Assembly: GCA_903829015.1 (NCBI GenBank)
Contig: CAIKOJ010000182.1
Span: 1 to 40,566, forward strand
Reading direction: 5' to 3'
DNA length: 40,566 bases
DNA from: an uncultured Bacteroidota bacterium
GTDB taxonomy: Bacteria > Bacteroidota > Bacteroidia > Chitinophagales > Chitinophagaceae
Below, in pieces: positions 10,432 through 18,531 of this stretch. The notes beneath the pieces are model-generated. The model did not search any database, was not told the DNA's origin, and saw only the letters and a program-made list of their open reading frames with translations. The position numbers were made by a program, and so were the translations under genes. Each line of letters begins with the position of its first letter. Position 1 is the stretch's first letter.

Positions 10432-10625
10432 AAGTCGAAGATTTTGTAATGTAATTTACTAATTTAACTCGGCATATGCTATTTGTTTAACATTAATTAA
10501 CCGGGTTGAGAAACTGTAACTTCTTGAATTGAAGTAGGATCCGGTGCCGCCAAAAAAGCATTTTAAGGCTGCAATATCAATATTATTTATTGGGTATACG
10601 GGAAAACATAACGAAAACCGATTAT

Positions 10626-10659
10626 TTTGTTTAACTTTGCGAAACAATAATTAAACAAA
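10626..10659 (+). promoter_or_regulatory. carH promoter: -7 box inside a perfect 9-bp dyad
   Basis: TAACTTTG (10632-10639) is an exact TAnnTTTG -7 box 20 bases before the ATG of the MerR-type gene. It is flanked by a perfect inverted repeat TTTGTTTAA (10626-10634) and TTAAACAAA (10651-10659), the right arm ending at the base before the start codon. A dyad overlapping promoter and transcription start is what a dimeric or tetrameric autorepressor would need. The function as an operator is inferred. Confidence 0.6.
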
Positions 10660-11547
10660 ATGCAGTCTTACCCCATACACGAGCTAGAAAGATTAACCGG
10701 TGTGAAAGCACATACCATTCGCATATGGGAGAAAAGATACGGGCTGGTGGAGCCCGACCGCACCGTTACCAACCGGCGCATCTATAATGGCGACCAGGTA
10801 AGGAAACTGCTCAATGTGGTGACTCTGTTATCGAAGGGATACAAGATCTCCAAGATCGCAGAACTATCTGAAACGCAACTGCACGAAGAAGTGCAAACAG
10901 ATAAGACAAGGTGGCAAGGTGAGACAATATATGTTGGCTACATAAACGACTTGGTGAAAGCCATGATCTCGTTTGATGAGGCTGGATTTGAAAAGATATT
11001 TTCAACTGCTTCCACCCGATTTGGTGTGTATGAGGCGATGATAAAGGTTGTGTATCCATTTTTGAGTAAAATAGGTGTTTTGTGGACCGTTGATAAAGCT
11101 GATCCGATGCAGGAGCATTTTGCGACCAGCGTTATTAAAAGAAAACTGATGGTAGCGATTGATGGTTTGGAGCAGGGGACCACTATTGTGAACAAAAAAT
11201 TTCTGCTTTTTCTACCGGAAGGTGAACTGCATGAGATAGGATTACTGTTCGCCAATTACATCATCAGATCGAAGGGGTATCAAACGCTTTATCTGGGACA
11301 AAACGTTCCGGATTCGCATCTGGAGGAGTTTGTGAAACTATTGAAGCCAGACTATATGCTGCTGTTTTACATAGCATCGAGAACAAAAGAACAGGTAAAC
11401 GCACACATAGCTGAGTTATCGAAAATGAGTCAGCATACGCAAGTATTGGTAACAGGCAACTTTGAGTTGTTTGATACTGAAGGAAAGAAATTACCAAATG
11501 TGCGTTTTTTAGAAGGTGCACAACAACTATTGGAAATAATTGAATAA
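10660..11547 (+). CDS. CarH/LitR-type B12-binding MerR-family transcriptional regulator
   Basis: 295 aa. Residues 1-75 form a MerR winged helix (YPIHELERLTGVKAHTIRIWEKRYGLVEP). Residues of about 90-170 are the helical B12-cap domain and 180-295 the cobalamin-binding Rossmann domain. The residues that make CarH proteins light sensors are present: W142, E152 and H153 in LWTVDKADPMQEH, with the same W-to-EH spacing as Thermus CarH (W131, E141, H142), and H191 in GELHEIG as the expected lower axial ligand of cobalt. In known CarH proteins the dark tetramer with adenosylcobalamin represses carotenoid genes and light breaks the Co-C bond. Here it heads the crt operon, 48 bases before crtI, so it likely represses its own operon in the dark. 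No experimental gene name applies. Confidence 0.88.
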   Translation: MQSYPIHELERLTGVKAHTIRIWEKRYGLVEPDRTVTNRRIYNGDQVRKLLNVVTLLSKGYKISKIAELSETQLHEEVQTDKTRWQGETIYVGYINDLVKAMISFDEAGFEKIFSTASTRFGVYEAMIKVVYPFLSKIGVLWTVDKADPMQEHFATSVIKRKLMVAIDGLEQGTTIVNKKFLLFLPEGELHEIGLLFANYIIRSKGYQTLYLGQNVPDSHLEEFVKLLKPDYMLLFYIASRTKEQVNAHIAELSKMSQHTQVLVTGNFELFDTEGKKLPNVRFLEGAQQLLEIIE

Positions 11548-11595
11548 GGGTTCAAGGGGTATCAGCAATATCGAATTGGATATAAAAAGGAGTAT

Positions 11596-13065
11596 TTGAA
11601 AAAAGTAACGATCATAGGTAGCGGGTTTTCTGGTCTGTCGGCGGCATCATTTCTGGCGAAAGCCGGGGCTGATGTAACTGTGCTTGAAAAGAATAGCACA
11701 ACTGGTGGCAGAGCACGGAATTACAGCGAGCAGGGGTTCATGTTCGACATGGGGCCAAGCTGGTACTGGATGCCCGATGTGTTTGAAAGATTCTTTGCAA
11801 ATTTTGGTAAGCACCCAAGCGATTACTACAAACTGGTGCAGCTAGATCCGGGTTTTCAGATGATATTTTCGGAAGATGATATTGTGCAGATACCTGCGAG
11901 TATTGAAGGGATTTATGAAGTGTTTGAGGGGATAGAGAAAGGCAGTGCAGATAAGCTGAAGATTTTTCTGGAAGAAGGTGCCTATAAATATAAAGTGGGT
12001 ATGCAACACCTTGTGCACCAGCCTGCATATTCGTGGCTGGAGTTTGCCAGGTACGATATCATCAGGGATGCATCGAGGCTACATATGTTCAAGTCTGTGC
12101 GGGAATATGTTTCGCAGTTTTTTAAAGACGAGCGGCTGGTGGCGCTGATGGAGTTCCCTGTATTGTTTCTGGGAGCAACAGCGAAGCAAATACCTGCACT
12201 ATACAGCCTGATGAATTATTCGGCATTATCGCAGGGCACCTGGTACCCCATGAAAGGGATGGCTGAGATCATAAAGGGCATGGAGGCGCTGGCTGTATCG
12301 ATGGGTGTGGAATTTGTCACCAGCTGCGAAGCAAAGAAGATAGATATAACCGGTAACAAGGCCATCAATATAAAAACGAATAAGGGTGTCTATACAACGG
12401 ACGGCATAATAGCCAGCGGCGACTACCACCATATAGAGCAGAACCTGTTGGAGATGCGATATAGGAACTACTCAGAAAAGTACTGGGACAAAAGAGTACT
12501 GGCGCCATCGAGCCTGATATTTTATGTGGGTGTGAACAAAAAGATAAAGAAACTTATCCATCACAATTTGTTTTTTGATGCATCGCTGAACGTTCACGCA
12601 CATGAAATCTATCATGACCCCAAGTGGCCCAATGATCCGCTGTTCTATGTTTGCTGTCCATCGAAAACAGATGCAAGCGTTGCACCCGAGGGAATGGAGA
12701 ATCTGTTTATACTGATACCGATAGCACCGGGCCTTAGCGATACAGACGAGATAAGGGAACACTACTTTAAAGTAGTTATAGAAAGAATGGAAAAGGTTTG
12801 TGTCGAAAGCATAATGGAGCATATTGTGTACAAAAAAAGCTACTGCAAGAATGACTTTGTGAGTGACTACCATGCCTACAAAGGAAACGCTTACGGACTG
12901 GCGAATACACTGCGGCAGACAGCAGTGCTGAAACCAACATTGAGAAACAAGAAAGTGAAAAATATGTTTTACGCCGGGCAGCTGACCGTGCCGGGACCGG
13001 GGGTACCACCCGCACTCATCTCGGGACAGATAGCCGCAGAGCAATTATTACTACACTTAAAATAA
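11596..13065 (+). CDS. crtI: Phytoene desaturase (CrtI family)
   Basis: 489 aa. FAD-dependent desaturase that introduces the double bonds turning phytoene into lycopene at the membrane. The dinucleotide-binding motif GSGFSG lies at residues 8-13 with TVLEKNSTTGGRAR after it. FMFDMGPSWYWMP and the C-terminal FYAGQLTVPGPGVPPALISG are the bacterial CrtI signatures. Translation begins at a TTG at 11596, placed three bases after AAGGAG; no ATG is available and the Rossmann motif begins at residue 4, so the start is secure. crtB follows after 6 bases. Confidence 0.95.
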   Translation: MKKVTIIGSGFSGLSAASFLAKAGADVTVLEKNSTTGGRARNYSEQGFMFDMGPSWYWMPDVFERFFANFGKHPSDYYKLVQLDPGFQMIFSEDDIVQIPASIEGIYEVFEGIEKGSADKLKIFLEEGAYKYKVGMQHLVHQPAYSWLEFARYDIIRDASRLHMFKSVREYVSQFFKDERLVALMEFPVLFLGATAKQIPALYSLMNYSALSQGTWYPMKGMAEIIKGMEALAVSMGVEFVTSCEAKKIDITGNKAINIKTNKGVYTTDGIIASGDYHHIEQNLLEMRYRNYSEKYWDKRVLAPSSLIFYVGVNKKIKKLIHHNLFFDASLNVHAHEIYHDPKWPNDPLFYVCCPSKTDASVAPEGMENLFILIPIAPGLSDTDEIREHYFKVVIERMEKVCVESIMEHIVYKKSYCKNDFVSDYHAYKGNAYGLANTLRQTAVLKPTLRNKKVKNMFYAGQLTVPGPGVPPALISGQIAAEQLLLHLK

Positions 13066-13071
13066 AGGTTG

Positions 13072-13908
13072 ATGAAACAAATATTTGACGACCTGTCGCA
13101 AAGGTTCAGCAAGATAACCACCCAAACCTACAGCACCAGTTTTTCGCTGGGCATCAGGTTTTTGGATAAGCGCTTTCATGGGCCTATCTATTCTGTTTAT
13201 GGGTTTGTGCGGTTTGCAGATGAGATCGTAGACTCGTTTCACGGGTACAATAAAGCGGAACTGCTCAGCGAGTTCAAAGAGGAAACATGGAAAGGGATAG
13301 CAAACGGTATCAGCCTGAACCCAATACTGAATAGCTTTCAGAAAGTGGTGAATGCATACAATGTTGATTTTGAACTGATCGAGCGGTTTTTTGATAGTAT
13401 GGAGACGGACCTTGAACAGAAAACCCACACCGAAGAATCATATAACCAATACGTACTAGGATCGGCAGAAGTGGTGGGGTTGATGTGCCTGTGCATATTT
13501 ACTGAGAATGATACTGAACTGTATAAGAAACTGAAAAGACCTGCGATGAAACTTGGTGCGGCATTCCAGAAAGTGAATTTCCTCAGAGATCTGAATGCAG
13601 ATTATGAAGGACTGGGTAGAACCTATTTCCCCGGCGTAGATTTTAACCGATTCTCGATGCAGGAAAAAGAGCGCATTCAGCAAGAGATTGAAATGGATTT
13701 TTCTGAAGCCCTGGCGGGAATCAGAAAATTGCCAACGTCGTCAAGAAAGGGGGTGTATCTAGCCTATTACTATTACAGAAAACTGTTTCTAAAAATTACT
13801 AATACGCCTGCCGAACTAATTTTGAAGACCAGAATAAGGATATCCAATCACAGAAAGATAGGGTTGATGTTTAAGTCTATGCTGAGACACCAGTTGAATC
13901 TGCTATAG
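13072..13908 (+). CDS. crtB: Phytoene synthase (CrtB family)
   Basis: 278 aa. Condenses two geranylgeranyl diphosphates to phytoene, the first committed carotenoid step. Both Asp-rich Mg-diphosphate motifs are visible: ADEIVD (D50 and D54) and RDLNADYEGLGR (D173, D177). The ATG at 13072 is preferred over a TTG at 13069 because the AAAGG ribosome site at 13064-13068 would touch the TTG. It overlaps no gene but starts 6 bases after crtI, and its ribosome site overlaps the crtI stop codon, so the two are probably translationally coupled. Confidence 0.95.
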   Translation: MKQIFDDLSQRFSKITTQTYSTSFSLGIRFLDKRFHGPIYSVYGFVRFADEIVDSFHGYNKAELLSEFKEETWKGIANGISLNPILNSFQKVVNAYNVDFELIERFFDSMETDLEQKTHTEESYNQYVLGSAEVVGLMCLCIFTENDTELYKKLKRPAMKLGAAFQKVNFLRDLNADYEGLGRTYFPGVDFNRFSMQEKERIQQEIEMDFSEALAGIRKLPTSSRKGVYLAYYYYRKLFLKITNTPAELILKTRIRISNHRKIGLMFKSMLRHQLNLL

Positions 13909-13949
13909 ATGTTACTAAGAGAAAAGAAGTTGAGTTGGTTACCTAAAAT

Positions 13950-14429
13950 ATGAACATGAAAATTTACGAACTGAAGAGAGAGCAAATGTTGCCGATTGGT
14001 GTTGAAGAAGCCTGGAAATTCTTCTCGAAAGCGGAGAATCTATCCAAGATCACGCCGCCGGAATTGTCATTCCATATTCTTACTGATCTGAAGGATGAAC
14101 CTGTTTACTCGGGTTTGAAGATCGACTATACCGTAAAGCCATTGCTGGGAATACCAATGAGATGGACAACGGAGATAACAGGAGTTAATGCTCCTCATGT
14201 TTTTACCGACAGGCAACTTAAAGGGCCGTACAAACTATGGGAACACACCCATACCTTTGAAGCCGTGCCCGGTGGCGTGAAAATGACTGACTTGGTAAGA
14301 TATGCGATGCCGTTGGGATTGCTGGGAGAACTGGGGCATATGATCGTAGTAAAGAAGAAACTGGACGAGATTTTTGAATTCAGAAGAACGACTTTGATCA
14401 AATTACTTGGAACATACACAAAGCCATGA
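13950..14429 (+). CDS. SRPBCC-family (START/Bet v1-like) protein in the carotenoid operon
   Basis: 159 aa, no signal peptide. The pattern LKREQMLPIGVEEAWKFFSKAENLSKITPPEL at the N-terminus and the hydrophobic-pocket segments PYKLWEHTHTFEAV and LVRYAMPLGLLG are typical of SRPBCC ligand-binding folds related to coenzyme-Q-binding and cyclase/dehydrase proteins. It lies between crtB and crtZ and its stop overlaps the crtZ start (ATGA), so it is cotranscribed and probably binds a hydrophobic pathway intermediate or product; its biochemical role is not established. An alternative start is the ATG at 13956. Confidence 0.8.
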   Translation: MNMKIYELKREQMLPIGVEEAWKFFSKAENLSKITPPELSFHILTDLKDEPVYSGLKIDYTVKPLLGIPMRWTTEITGVNAPHVFTDRQLKGPYKLWEHTHTFEAVPGGVKMTDLVRYAMPLGLLGELGHMIVVKKKLDEIFEFRRTTLIKLLGTYTKP

Positions 14430-14896
14430 ACATAGCGATCGTAGATATTTTAATAGTTGTCGGCACCTTCTTAGGTATGGAGGCAGTAGCGTGGCTGGCA
14501 CACAAATTTCTGATGCATGGGCTCTTGTGGCAACTGCATGAGGATCACCATAAAAAGAACCCCACGTCGTTTTTTGAAAAGAATGATTACTTCTTTTTGA
14601 TATTTGCTATACCAGGGATTATTTGCCTGGCAGTTGGGATCTATACAAGTGTTACCTTTCTCTTGTATATAGGATTAGGTATAACCCTGTATGGTGCGGC
14701 TTACTTTATGGTGCATGATATTTTCATTCACCAACGGTTTAAGTGGCTGAGGAATATAGACAACAGCTATTTCAGGGCCATAAGGAGGGCGCATAAGATG
14801 CACCATAAGCATCTGGGAAAAGAAGACGGAGAGTGTTTTGGCATGTTGCTGGTGCCACGCAAGTATTTTATGGAAGCAAAAAAAACAAACAAGTAA
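14426..14896 (+). CDS. crtZ: Beta-carotene hydroxylase (CrtZ family)
   Basis: 156 aa membrane protein of the fatty-acid hydroxylase fold. The four histidine motifs that bind the di-iron centre are all visible: HKFLMH (H26, H31), HEDHH (H38, H41, H42), HDIFIH (H97, H102) and HKMHH (H123, H126, H127). It adds hydroxyl groups to the beta rings, turning beta-carotene into cryptoxanthin and zeaxanthin. Hydrophobic spans lie at about 5-22, 54-75 and 76-95. It overlaps the SRPBCC gene by 4 bases and abuts the lycopene cyclase gene with no gap. Confidence 0.95.
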   Translation: MNIAIVDILIVVGTFLGMEAVAWLAHKFLMHGLLWQLHEDHHKKNPTSFFEKNDYFFLIFAIPGIICLAVGIYTSVTFLLYIGLGITLYGAAYFMVHDIFIHQRFKWLRNIDNSYFRAIRRAHKMHHKHLGKEDGECFGMLLVPRKYFMEAKKTNK

Positions 14897-15616
14897 ATGC
14901 CCGATAAATACACTTATCTGCTGGTTGACTTTTGTTGCTTGGTGGTTCCGTTTATTTTTTCATTTCACCCGAAAATAAACTTCCACAAGCAGTGGAAACA
15001 TTTTTTCATTCCCTGCATTGTAACGGCGCTGCTATTTTGCGAATGGGATATGTTGTTTACAAGGTGGGAGATATGGAGTTTTAACCCTCGGTACATCTGC
15101 GGAATTCACATCATCAATTTACCAATTGAAGAGTGCCTATTCTTTTTGTTCATCCCTTATTGCGGTGTATTTACTTACCATTGCATCACCAATTATTTAA
15201 ATTTCGATAGGTTTGCGAAACACGCAAGGGTGCTATCCATTATTCTGATCGTATTTCTTTTTGTTGTTGCTGGTTTCAATTTGCATAAGTATTACACTGC
15301 CACTACTTTTATATTGCTTGCCGTGATGCTCATTTTTATGATCCGATTAAAAGCATGGTTTATGCCAGCTTTCTATTTCTCTTTCGCATTGATACTCATT
15401 CCCTTTTTCATATCAAATGGTATACTTACGGGGAGTTTCCTGGCAGAGCCTGTGGTCTCATACAATCCAAACCATATTCTGGGGCCGAGAATGTTTACTA
15501 TACCGGTGGAGGATACTTTTTATGGGATGCTGTTGCTTCTGGCGAACGTTGCAGGATTTGAATACATGAAAAGAAGAAATGCGGAACATGAGCCTGCAAT
15601 AACCGTTAGCAAGTAA
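14897..15616 (+). CDS. Lycopene cyclase, fused CrtYc-CrtYd type
   Basis: 239 aa, very hydrophobic, with about seven membrane spans. It contains two copies of the lycopene cyclase domain pattern: NLPIEECLFFLFIPYCGVF in the first half and TIPVEDTFYGMLLLL in the second, with the conserved P-x-E-(E/D). This matches the single-chain fusion of the heterodimeric CrtYc/CrtYd cyclase and not the FAD-dependent CrtY. It closes the ends of lycopene to give beta-carotene. The ATG directly follows the crtZ stop codon, so coupling is expected. It is the last gene of the crt operon; no terminator was seen before the next gene 61 bases on. Confidence 0.92.
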   Translation: MPDKYTYLLVDFCCLVVPFIFSFHPKINFHKQWKHFFIPCIVTALLFCEWDMLFTRWEIWSFNPRYICGIHIINLPIEECLFFLFIPYCGVFTYHCITNYLNFDRFAKHARVLSIILIVFLFVVAGFNLHKYYTATTFILLAVMLIFMIRLKAWFMPAFYFSFALILIPFFISNGILTGSFLAEPVVSYNPNHILGPRMFTIPVEDTFYGMLLLLANVAGFEYMKRRNAEHEPAITVSK

Positions 15617-15677: not shown

Positions 15678-18531
15678 ATGTTTATCCGCACACTTTTTGT
15701 ACTGGCTTTTACCGTTTTTACCCTACCTGCGTTTTCGCAGACCTTTAAAATTACCGGCAAAGTAATTGACGATAAGGACGCATCCTCTCTACCTGGGGTT
15801 ACTGTGGTTATTTCTAAAACCACAGATTCATTGGCTGTACGGGGCGGAATAACCGACGCTGATGGAAATTTTGAGGTAGCCGGATTTGAGCCCGGAACAT
15901 ACTCGCTTCGATTGGAGTATACAGGATATGCAGTTGCACGCAGAAGGGTCACCGTAGCTGATAAGGACGTTGCTATTGGTAGTATAAAAATTAAAACCCG
16001 TGAAAATGAATTGAAGAGTGTAACTGTAAAGGAAAACCAGATAAGGGCGGAACAGAAGGGCGATACAGCACAATTTAGAGCGGATGCTTTTAAAACCCAC
16101 GTTGATGCCAGTGCAGAGGATCTGGTAACAAAAGATGCCGGGTGTGACATCTGATAATACAGGTGTAAAGGTAAACGGAGAAAATGTGCAACAGGTGTAT
16201 GTAGATGGCAAACCATTTTTCGGAACCGACCCTACCCTTGCGTTGAAAAACATGCCTGCCGAAATTGTTGATAAGATACAGGTGTTTGACAAACTGAGTG
16301 ACCAGGCGATGTTTACAGGTTTTGATGACGGGAGCTCCCAAAAAACAATGAACATAGTTACCAAGAAAGGTAAAAGCGAAGGTACATTTGGAAAACTATA
16401 CGCGGGCTACGGAACAGATGAGCGGTATACCGCCGGCGGGAATATCAATATTTTTCATGGAGAGCAGAAGATCAGCATTCTGGGCATGAGCAACAATATC
16501 AATGTTCAGAACTTTAGTTCGGAGGATCTGCTGGGTGTGAGTGGCGGTGGTGGTGGCCGCAGCAGAGGCGGTGGTGGCAGAGGTAATTTCGGCGGCGGTA
16601 GTGGCGGAGCGAGTAATTTTATGACCGGACAACAAGGAGGAATTACCAATACAAACTCTTTTGGTGTGAATTATTCGGATGCATGGGGAAAGAAAATAAA
16701 GGTAAGTGGCAGTTACTTTTTTAACGGCACCGATAACAACAATACAAATGACATTGCCAGAGACTATTACACCCCAAACTCAATCACCAACCATTACATT
16801 GAAAATGACACTTCCGAGTCAAAGAATTTCAATCATAGGTTCAACTTAAAATTCGAGTACACTATTGATTCATTTAATTCGATCATTTTCACACCGGGTA
16901 TCAGTTTTCAGGAGAATAAAACGACCGGAACATCGCCGGCAAATGATTCAATAAACAAGATCATTGCCAGCATTACCAACAACAACAGTACTGCCAATAA
17001 CAGCGGCTATAGCTCATCTAATAATCTGCTGATACAGCACAAGTTTAAGAAGCAACGCAGAACCATATCGTTGAATATCAGTGCTTCGCTGAACGACAAG
17101 ACGGGGGATGGAACAAACTATTCTGACAATAAATATTACGACAGTGTAGGCAATCTGATTAAACTTCAATATTACGATCAGCAGTATTCGCTTGGCAGTA
17201 ACGGGTATACGGTATCGCCCAATGTGACCTATACGGAGCCCGTGGGCAAGAGGGGTCAACTGATGGTAAATTATAATCCATCATACACCTACAACTATGC
17301 CAACAAAGTCACTAACGACTTCGATACCGTCTCTCAAAAATTCGATAAACAAAATGACACCTTCTCGAACAAATACAATTCAGACTACAATTTGCAAAGA
17401 GGCGGATTGAGTTACCGGGTGGGCGATAGAAAGTTGTCGTTAACAGCAGGTGCTAATGTGCAATATGCGACACTGAACGGAGAACGCACCTATCCGAATC
17501 TGTTCTCAGTGAATAAGAACTTTACCAGTGTGCTTCCGTCGGTTACATTCAACTACAGATACAGCGAAGGGCGCAACCTGCGTATTGTCTACAGAACCAA
17601 TACAAGTTCGCCAACAATAACCCAATTACAGGACATCGTTGATATCAGCAACCCGCTACTTTTAAAGACCGGTAACCCCGGACTGAAACAGGATTACGAA
17701 CACACGTTCATTATAAGATATGGTTCGACCAAGGCGAAAACAGCACGATCATTGTTCTTCAACCTGTATGCTAATTATGTGACTGATTATGTATCGAATG
17801 CCACCTATACAACCGCAGACTATACTAATCCTGTAACCAATGAGCAGGTAAAAATAGCACCGGGCAGTCAACTCACAGTACCGGTGAATCTGGACGGCTA
17901 TTTTAACGGCAGAACTTTTCTGGCATATGGGCTCCCTGTGAAACCGATAAAGTGTAACCTGAATTTGAGCGGAGGTTTCAATTACAGCCGCACACCGGGA
18001 TTGATCAATAATGTGCTGAACTATACCAATAACTCTGCGCCGCAAGCGGGGGTTGTGCTCAGCAGTAACATAAGCGAGCAACTGGACTTTACTTTATCGT
18101 ACAACGGCACTTACAATATTGTAGACAACACCTCACAGAAACAAGCCAATAACAATTATTATAACCACATAGCGGCTTTTAAGATCAACTGGGTATTTAA
18201 AAAACACCTTGTTGTGAACACAAATATCACGGAGAACTACTACACGGCATTCAGTGGCACCGGTACACAGGATTTCTATTTATGGAACGCATACATTGGC
18301 TATAAATTCCTGAAAAACAATGCGCTGGAAGCACGTATATCGGCATATGATCTGCTGAAACAAAACAAGAGCATTAACCGCAACGTAACAGAAAACTATA
18401 CTGAGAACAGCGTAACGCAGGTATTGCAACAGTATTTTATCTTCCAGCTCACTTACACCATCAGGAATTTTAAGGGAGCCCTGCCAACTGAAGAAAAAAG
18501 TGATGGACCGTGGGATGGTCACCGGCATTAA
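15678..18531 (+). pseudogene. Outer-membrane beta-barrel (TonB-receptor-like) protein, split by a frameshift
   Basis: Two adjoining frames make one protein of about 950 aa. Part 1 (15678-16154) has a signal peptide (to PAFSQ) and a carboxypeptidase-regulatory-like domain (ITGKVIDD...LPGVTVV...GYAVARRRV), ending ASAEDLVTK. Part 2 (16135-18531) continues MPGVTSDNTGVKVNGENVQQVYVDGKPFF, split here only by wording: a plug-like domain followed by a long beta barrel, with a glycine-rich loop near 16535-16620. The expected junction DLVTK-MPGV needs ACA AAG ATG CCG, while the window reads ACAAAAGATGCCG, one extra A in the run at 16130-16133. It may be a real mutation, a phase-variable tract or a sequencing error. 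The rest of both frames is intact. Family: outer membrane beta-barrel proteins; substrate unknown. Confidence 0.8.

Follow-up and report, generated by a model that had tools for sequence, protein, structure and literature searches.

The question raised by this locus is whether an uncultured member of the Chitinophagaceae switches its carotenoid genes by light that is read through adenosylcobalamin (AdoCbl), in the manner of the repressor CarH. The window examined here (positions 1-40,566 of contig CAIKOJ010000182.1) carries on its + strand, at 10660-11547, a gene for a CarH-like MerR regulator of 295 amino acids, recognized by its open reading frame (ORF), by Pfam and by a PDB search, and this gene stands first in a carotenoid (crt) operon. 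We consider it likely that the protein acts as an AdoCbl-dependent dark repressor of crt and of its own gene, working through an operator of altered geometry and relieved by light, and this reading is supported because the cobalamin-associated residues, a light-response signature, an operator-like palindrome lying on the promoter and start codon, and genes for the cofactor are all present. Neither the residue set nor the operon is uncommon in Bacteroidota; what is new is the conserved palindrome, together with the putative regulon to which it points.

The protein has a good probability of functioning like CarH, and it is a member of the wider CarH/LitR group. Pfam identifies a MerR domain (PF13411, E=4.7e-17) and the four-helix B12-binding_2 domain (PF02607, 35.6 bits, above its cut-off of 23), and the recognition helix carries the motif R21-I-W23-E24-K-R26-Y27, of the RxWERRY type, whose R, W, E and R are invariant in 110 aligned proteins. 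The top matches of the PDB search were Thermus CarH/LitR (3whp/5c8d, E ~1e-20), and an AlphaFold model (54 sequences, mean pLDDT 92.8, pTM 0.75) likewise ranked CarH chains first when compared with the PDB, the cobalamin-domain chains of Thermus thermophilus CarH (TtCarH) reaching a TMt of up to 0.86 at an rmsd of ~3. Counting along the PDB-search alignment, from which the Thermus residue numbers were obtained, W142 (codon 11083-11085, +) corresponds to W131, E152/H153 (11113-11118, +) to E141/H142 and H191 (11230-11232, +) to H177, with identical W-x9-EH spacing, and the lower-ligand motif ExHxxG is present as E189xH191xxG194. Furthermore, the SignatureFinder signature described for light-responsive cobalamin domains (GxxW, EH, GxxH and GxxxP; PMC11796333) is complete, as G139xxW142, E152H153, G188xxH191 and G213xxxP217. 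With class I LitR of Thermus thermophilus the protein thus shares the MerR winged helix with RxWExRY, the four-helix bundle and Rossmann B12 domain, Wx9EH and ExHxxG, and the system further shares the half-site TnnACA and phytoene synthase and photolyase neighbors, at an identity of ~22-32%.

How strongly these residues are held was judged from an alignment of 110 proteins (109 distinct sequences), comprising the query, 29 proteins from the loci of the best matches among 71 non-own matches in sampled Bacteroidota genomes (the other 42 lie outside the set), and 80 named records, the best 80 of at least 580 matches to a pattern search. Among those best 80, the nearest relatives are metagenome-assembled Bacteroidota, including Taibaiella and Chitinophagaceae, at 51-54% identity; 79 are labelled Bacteroidota, and the remaining one (L068; L, G and C numbers are our own handles) is labelled Thalassovita and is perhaps misbinned. 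The loci are interrelated (many are from Algoriphagus, L013 and L104 are equal in sequence, and further equal-length pairs are 90-97% identical), and as such the counts given below are not independent. W142, E152, H153 and H191 are invariant in 110/110 proteins, which, with the alignment to Thermus CarH, bears out the original prediction that these residues stand at CarH positions with unchanged W-to-EH spacing. The search patterns included ExExHE, so that the conservation of E189 and H191 is partly selected, and W142, E152 and H153 lay outside the patterns. Only 17 columns are invariant. Ten of them (T19, R21, W23, E24, R26, P32, R34, R40, Y42 and S64) belong to the DNA-binding half; the other seven (G139, W142, E152, H153, K162, E189 and H191) are spread over the rest of the protein, where all but K162 coincide with the published corrinoid motifs. 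Within ExHxxG the E and H are found in 110/110 proteins and G194 in 63/110, while the signature columns are Gly at G188 in 69/110, Gly at G213 in 108/110 and Pro at P217 in 107/110. Since drifted paralogues without EH and the cobalt His do exist, the residue set in this lineage is maintained by selection. These paralogues are carried on plasmids (L161, L162 and L163; two from Persicobacter and one from Spirosoma), keep the overall architecture, and are perhaps CarA-like, B12-independent regulators.

The candidate operator is a perfect 11-bp inverted repeat at 10624-10661, made up of ATTTTGTTTAA (10624-10634) and TTAAACAAAAT (10651-10661) with 16 bp between them, and having TGTTTA-N18-TAAACA (10628-10657) as its core. 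Inside it lies TAACTTTG (10632-10639, +), which matches TAnnTTTG, the sequence that we take to be the Bacteroidota -7 promoter consensus. The left arm runs into TAACTTTG and the right arm ends within the carH start codon; no -33 box was seen by eye in the carH promoter of the window. A lone extra half-site, TTTGTTTAA, occurs at 10482-10490 (+), without a partner at a gap of 17-20.

The geometry of this palindrome is fixed across relatives. In the window and 109 further CarH loci (1,337,577 bases), TGTTTA...TAAACA occurs 90 times with a gap of 18 and 11 times with a gap of 19, whereas no other gap between 0 and 60 is represented more than 3 times. Within the 80 named loci there are 79 sites at gap 18-19, distributed over 53 loci (other gaps have a mean of 0.4 and a maximum of 3), and 74 of these sites lie within 1.3 kb of carH and 76 outside ORFs of at least 100 aa. 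No two of the 90 gap-18 sites have the same sequence. Their profile is TTAAACAAA per arm and shows no direct-repeat signal, and TAnnTTTG falls inside 34 of them, compared with 3.6 when the spacers are shuffled (sd 1.9, max 11, n=500). By its letters, the candidate palindrome uses the same half-site as the published CarH direct repeats; the A published three bases before the T of TnnACA was considered as part of it and rejected, being found in 43% of 180 arms.

Some promoters hold two or three palindromes (L074, L082, L102, L070, L016, L019). Certain neighbors are separated by 44 or 55 bp, both of which are multiples of 11, and this suggests stacked binding; other spacings, e.g. 63-64 bp, occur in L062 and L072. 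Beta-proteobacterial CarH-like genes have compact upstream palindromes of their own, TTTGTCCTGGACAAA (L165) and TTTGTCCTAGACAAA (L156), unlike both the direct repeats and the N18 form.

The palindrome follows the regulator across the phylum. Among 296 sampled Bacteroidota genomes, 63 (the source genome included) have a match to the CarH-like protein at E<=1e-20, weaker relatives being counted as absent, and TTGTTTA-N18-TAAACAA, the core extended by one base on each side, is found in 42 of these 63 and in 13 of the 233 others (Fisher 6e-24, kinship ignored). Against a reversed-pattern control, extended-form sites number 110 versus 18 in the 63 genomes with the protein and 13 versus 16 in the 233 without it; one site from the latter was inspected (L211) and lies inside a coding ORF. 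In the source genome the short form TGTTTA-N17-20-TAAACA had to be rejected as a search, as it gives 8 sites versus 7 for the reversed control, and therefore only the extended form is informative there. Sites of the extended form comprise two perfect copies and seven that carry two mismatches, single-mismatch sites being absent; this total equals that of the control (9 versus 9), whereby the two-mismatch search was also rejected and only the perfect copies stand out. These are the copy at the carH-crt promoter and one (L126:9914; C170:17913-17944) ~90 bp before a DUF2805/TIGR03643 gene that is followed by a gene for a short-chain dehydrogenase (SDR).

Around carH in the 80 named loci, many of them on short contigs, crtI is found 37 times, crtB 36, crtZ 33 and the cyclase 26, and the palindrome mostly takes one of two places: before carH in those loci whose operon carH heads, or else between carH and the operon that comes next. 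In several of the listed loci that next operon begins with an ECF-type (extracytoplasmic function) sigma factor, two examples having been checked by Pfam. In one genome (G249) carH and crt are ~0.7 Mb apart, and each has a palindrome (L137/L138). Beyond these loci we considered 40 site regions, a selection from the sites listed in the sampled-genome scan, of which 7 contain carH. Relatives of carH, crt, photolyase, sigma, FolE, PTPS, SDR, SRPBCC or CHRD genes lie within 3 kb in 18 of the 40, although SDR and sigma are large families and some of these matches may be chance. A fasciclin gene starts beside the palindrome in 10 further regions (L173, L176, L178, L179, L189, L191, L192, L197, L201, L202), all ten passing the Pfam Fasciclin model, and the remaining 12 show neither the reference families nor fasciclin. 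In four genomes of one genus (L182, L208, L209, L210) the palindrome precedes a three-gene ABC operon whose permease best matches BtuC, below its cut-off, and is thus of B12 or siderophore type; it is possible that a CarH protein controls corrinoid or iron uptake in that genus.

A supply of cofactor is also in evidence. The source genome encodes a PduO adenosyltransferase, with a 171-aa B12-binding-domain protein nearby that resembles the small part of methylmalonyl-CoA mutase (named by eye), and it has a cobalamin riboswitch a few genes before a TonB-dependent receptor. The riboswitch and adenosyltransferase indicate a cell that handles B12, and together with the sites before the BtuC/siderophore-type operon they are in keeping with an AdoCbl-binding crt repressor that senses the supply of B12 itself, such that B12-short cells make pigment and light is of minor importance; the residues, for their part, suggest at most a selection for an adenosyl-capped corrinoid. 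We regard this as the best of the alternatives, and as an unlikely one. The site's neighbors are genes of photoprotection (crt, photolyase, FolE/PTPS, SDR, DUF2805 and fasciclin) and come close to the light-induced sets described for Pseudomonas (PMC9758184), and green light is reported to have photolysed AdoCbl in 4/4 signature proteins tested (PMC11796333).

Several observations weigh against a light-relieved CarH-type repressor, and on these the original prediction of a complete B12/light-sensing residue set does not stand. The position of Thermus H132, a His that many but not all CarH proteins have, is T143 here, and is occupied among the 110 proteins by Q (55), L (14), T (9), V (7), S (7) and others, with His in 0/110. 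The SxT/V...GG motif for the cofactor tail is degenerate, its Ser being F236 (Ser in 9/110 proteins) and its GG being T265-G266. The pair that forms the Thermus dimer contact, whose residue numbers we take to be R176 and D201, is replaced by L190 and N215, with Arg at position 190 in 0/110 proteins and Asp at position 215 in 4/110. In Thermus that Arg-Asp pair is described as a dimer salt bridge (PMC9304148), while H132 is described as becoming the upper Co ligand after light, and most of the TtCarH H132A protein as staying tetrameric after light (PMC10442372). The Rossmann B12 domain scores 20.2 bits (PF02310), under the cut-off of 32.1, and the NCBIfam equivalog TransRegCarH (NF052513) scores 100.5 bits against a cut-off of 400. 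On the DNA side, known CarH operators are described as tandem 11-bp direct repeats, nAnnTnnACAn (PMC9304148, PMC8156234), and such repeats were rejected as the operator here, gap-5 pairs (an 11-bp period) numbering 1 and 1; GAAACA-N5-TAAACA in the promoter of the window matches the direct-repeat spacing, in this promoter only. Perfect sites are missing from 21 of the 63 genomes with the protein and from 27 of the 80 named loci; near carH these 27 loci have 9 one-mismatch sites at gap 18, while no other gap between 5 and 44 yields more than 3. To these points must be added the two source-genome searches at control level, and the rejection of PduO co-occurrence as strong proof: the gene is found in 63/63 genomes with the regulator versus 158/233 others, nearly the whole class having it, and its presence is a requirement that carries little weight.

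With neither a direct-repeat operator nor the SxT/V-GG motif, and with a score below the model's cut-off, the protein stands outside the strict CarH family. As Thr143 takes the place of the bis-His partner, its light state must also differ from that of Thermus CarH. Light sensing nonetheless stays plausible by analogy, as validated B12 photoreceptors without that His exist. One is CtMerR of Chloracidobacterium thermophilum (PDB 8JBS), a B12 MerR protein with Arg at this position and a DNA-binding domain only 25% identical to that of TtCarH, which is described as passing from a dark tetramer to a monomer in light (PMC11796333); CtMerR therefore does not need the bis-His state. Nor is the missing His peculiar to Bacteroidota, an idea that was considered and rejected: among 12 plasmid-borne relatives examined of 48 records, Wx9EH and the cobalt His are both intact in 7, and 6 of these 7 are also without His at the 132 position, which only Thermus has.

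The same departures raise a further alternative, that of a CarA-like repressor which has become independent of B12 and is relieved by some other light or redox signal. The degenerate SxT/V...GG motif and the low PF02310 score fit such a protein, and there are precedents in CarA and class II LitR (PMC9304148, PMC9758184) as well as in the degenerate Bacteroidota paralogues. However, the Trp of Wx9EH is described as lost in CarA (PMC9304148), and W, E, H and H at 110/110 are hard to explain without an adenosyl cofactor; we consider this explanation more doubtful still than sensing of B12 supply. Class II LitR (PplR/PmlR) of Pseudomonas resembles the present system as a light-relieved repressor with a regulon of photolyase, FolE, cryptochrome and SDR genes, but it is described as having retained nothing of the B12 domain beyond the four-helix part, as being relieved in the case of PmlR2 by a LOV protein, and as binding T(G/A)TACA-N12-TGTA(C/T)A, unlike the N18 palindrome (PMC9758184). 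A MerR-type activator that twists its promoter is very improbable: palindromes that lie inside promoters or overlap them are the classic binding sites of MerR proteins (PMC8156234) and the half-site gap is constant at 18 or 19 bp, yet the palindrome sits in a blocking position over the -7 element and start codon, such sites stand at varying distances from the next gene start, and CarH, CarA and class II LitR are described as repressors.

Returning to an AdoCbl-dependent dark repressor, it is reasonable to postulate a mechanism in which we infer DNA binding, AdoCbl binding, the oligomer and the direction of the light effect, the tetramer-to-monomer switch being borrowed from Thermus. In the dark, H191 would hold adenosylcobalamin, W142 and E152/H153 would cap it, and the protein would oligomerize; two DNA-binding domains could then bind TTTGTTTAA and TTAAACAAA, inverted half-sites that overlap the presumed -7 element and the start codon, and RNA polymerase would be blocked. 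In light, the Co-C bond would be broken, the adenosyl group would leave and the oligomer would loosen, such that crtI-crtB-SRPBCC-crtZ-cyclase would be transcribed along with the repressor gene. The copy of the site before the DUF2805-SDR pair would make for a small two-operon regulon in the source genome. The original prediction, that light read through AdoCbl controls both the pigment genes and the repressor, thus remains the best-supported reading of the motifs, palindrome and cofactor genes, while its likeness to Thermus fails at His132, the tail motif, the salt bridge and the direct-repeat operator.

The operator sets this lineage apart from the known systems, with an inverted repeat having 18-19 bp between half-sites where Thermus CarH has three 11-bp direct repeats. 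CarH and CarA of Myxococcus and Cystobacter are likewise crt repressors with 11-bp TnnACA repeats (CarH being B12-dependent), but they are thought to read direct repeats, a view put forward also for sites that had at first been proposed to be palindromic (PMC9304148). More tentatively, and at somewhat less than an even chance, we suggest from the comparative sequence data a distinct Bacteroidota CarH lineage that would serve as a phylum-wide sunlight regulator: an AdoCbl-bound, two-fold symmetric (head-to-head) assembly on the palindrome with its 18-19-bp gap, switching without the bis-His state and driving a cascade of crt, ECF-type sigma, photolyase, pterin and fasciclin genes and, in one genus, the BtuC/siderophore-type transporter.

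The genes that follow the regulator, all on the + strand, stand in the order first proposed, as ORFs and domain matches confirm. They are crtI, phytoene desaturase (11596-13065; ORF and NCBIfam); crtB, phytoene synthase (13069-13908; Pfam SQS_PSY, below the cut-off of every NCBIfam model); a gene for an SRPBCC-type protein (13950-14429), which matched no good Pfam or NCBIfam family, its Polyketide_cyc match being weak and below cut-off; a crtZ-like carotene hydroxylase gene (14426-14896; FA_hydroxylase PF04116, the name crtZ given by eye); and a lycopene cyclase gene (14897-15616; Pfam and NCBIfam) with two CarR-type domains in one protein. Relatives of the SRPBCC-type gene stand directly after the palindrome in L188 and L196, with photolyase genes nearby. 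Zeaxanthin, which had been predicted as the product, is likely but not certain, because the NCBIfam CrtID model (phytoene desaturase/3,4-desaturase) likewise recognizes CrtI, at 718.9 bits against a cut-off of 640, and the end product may not be zeaxanthin alone. Downstream, at 15678-18531 (+), a gene of outer-membrane beta-barrel type (by eye) is split into overlapping frames, 15678-16154 and 16135-18531, through either a frameshift or an assembly error.

Within the phylum, the crt cluster of Nonlabens spongiae is likewise described as headed by a MerR gene (PMC11855829), and Chryseobacterium lacus is described as having light-induced, presumed zeaxanthin, with car/lit genes reported absent (PMC7064467). 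A literature search, with subscription papers mostly outside its scope, found neither a CarH operator nor a B12 light response in Bacteroidota. The distribution of regulator and palindrome suggests a widespread sunlight response across the phylum. If this is true, B12-based light sensing would be a main route of protection against sunlight in a phylum that is common in lakes and soils and in the sea, and its regulon would have a concrete, searchable DNA site. Roughly a hundred natural proteins would then bear on the need for the bis-His light state of Thermus CarH, and green-light gene switches would gain a new operator geometry. Last, the finding would bear on the light induction of zeaxanthin in Bacteroidota, a matter left open in the account of Chryseobacterium lacus (PMC7064467).

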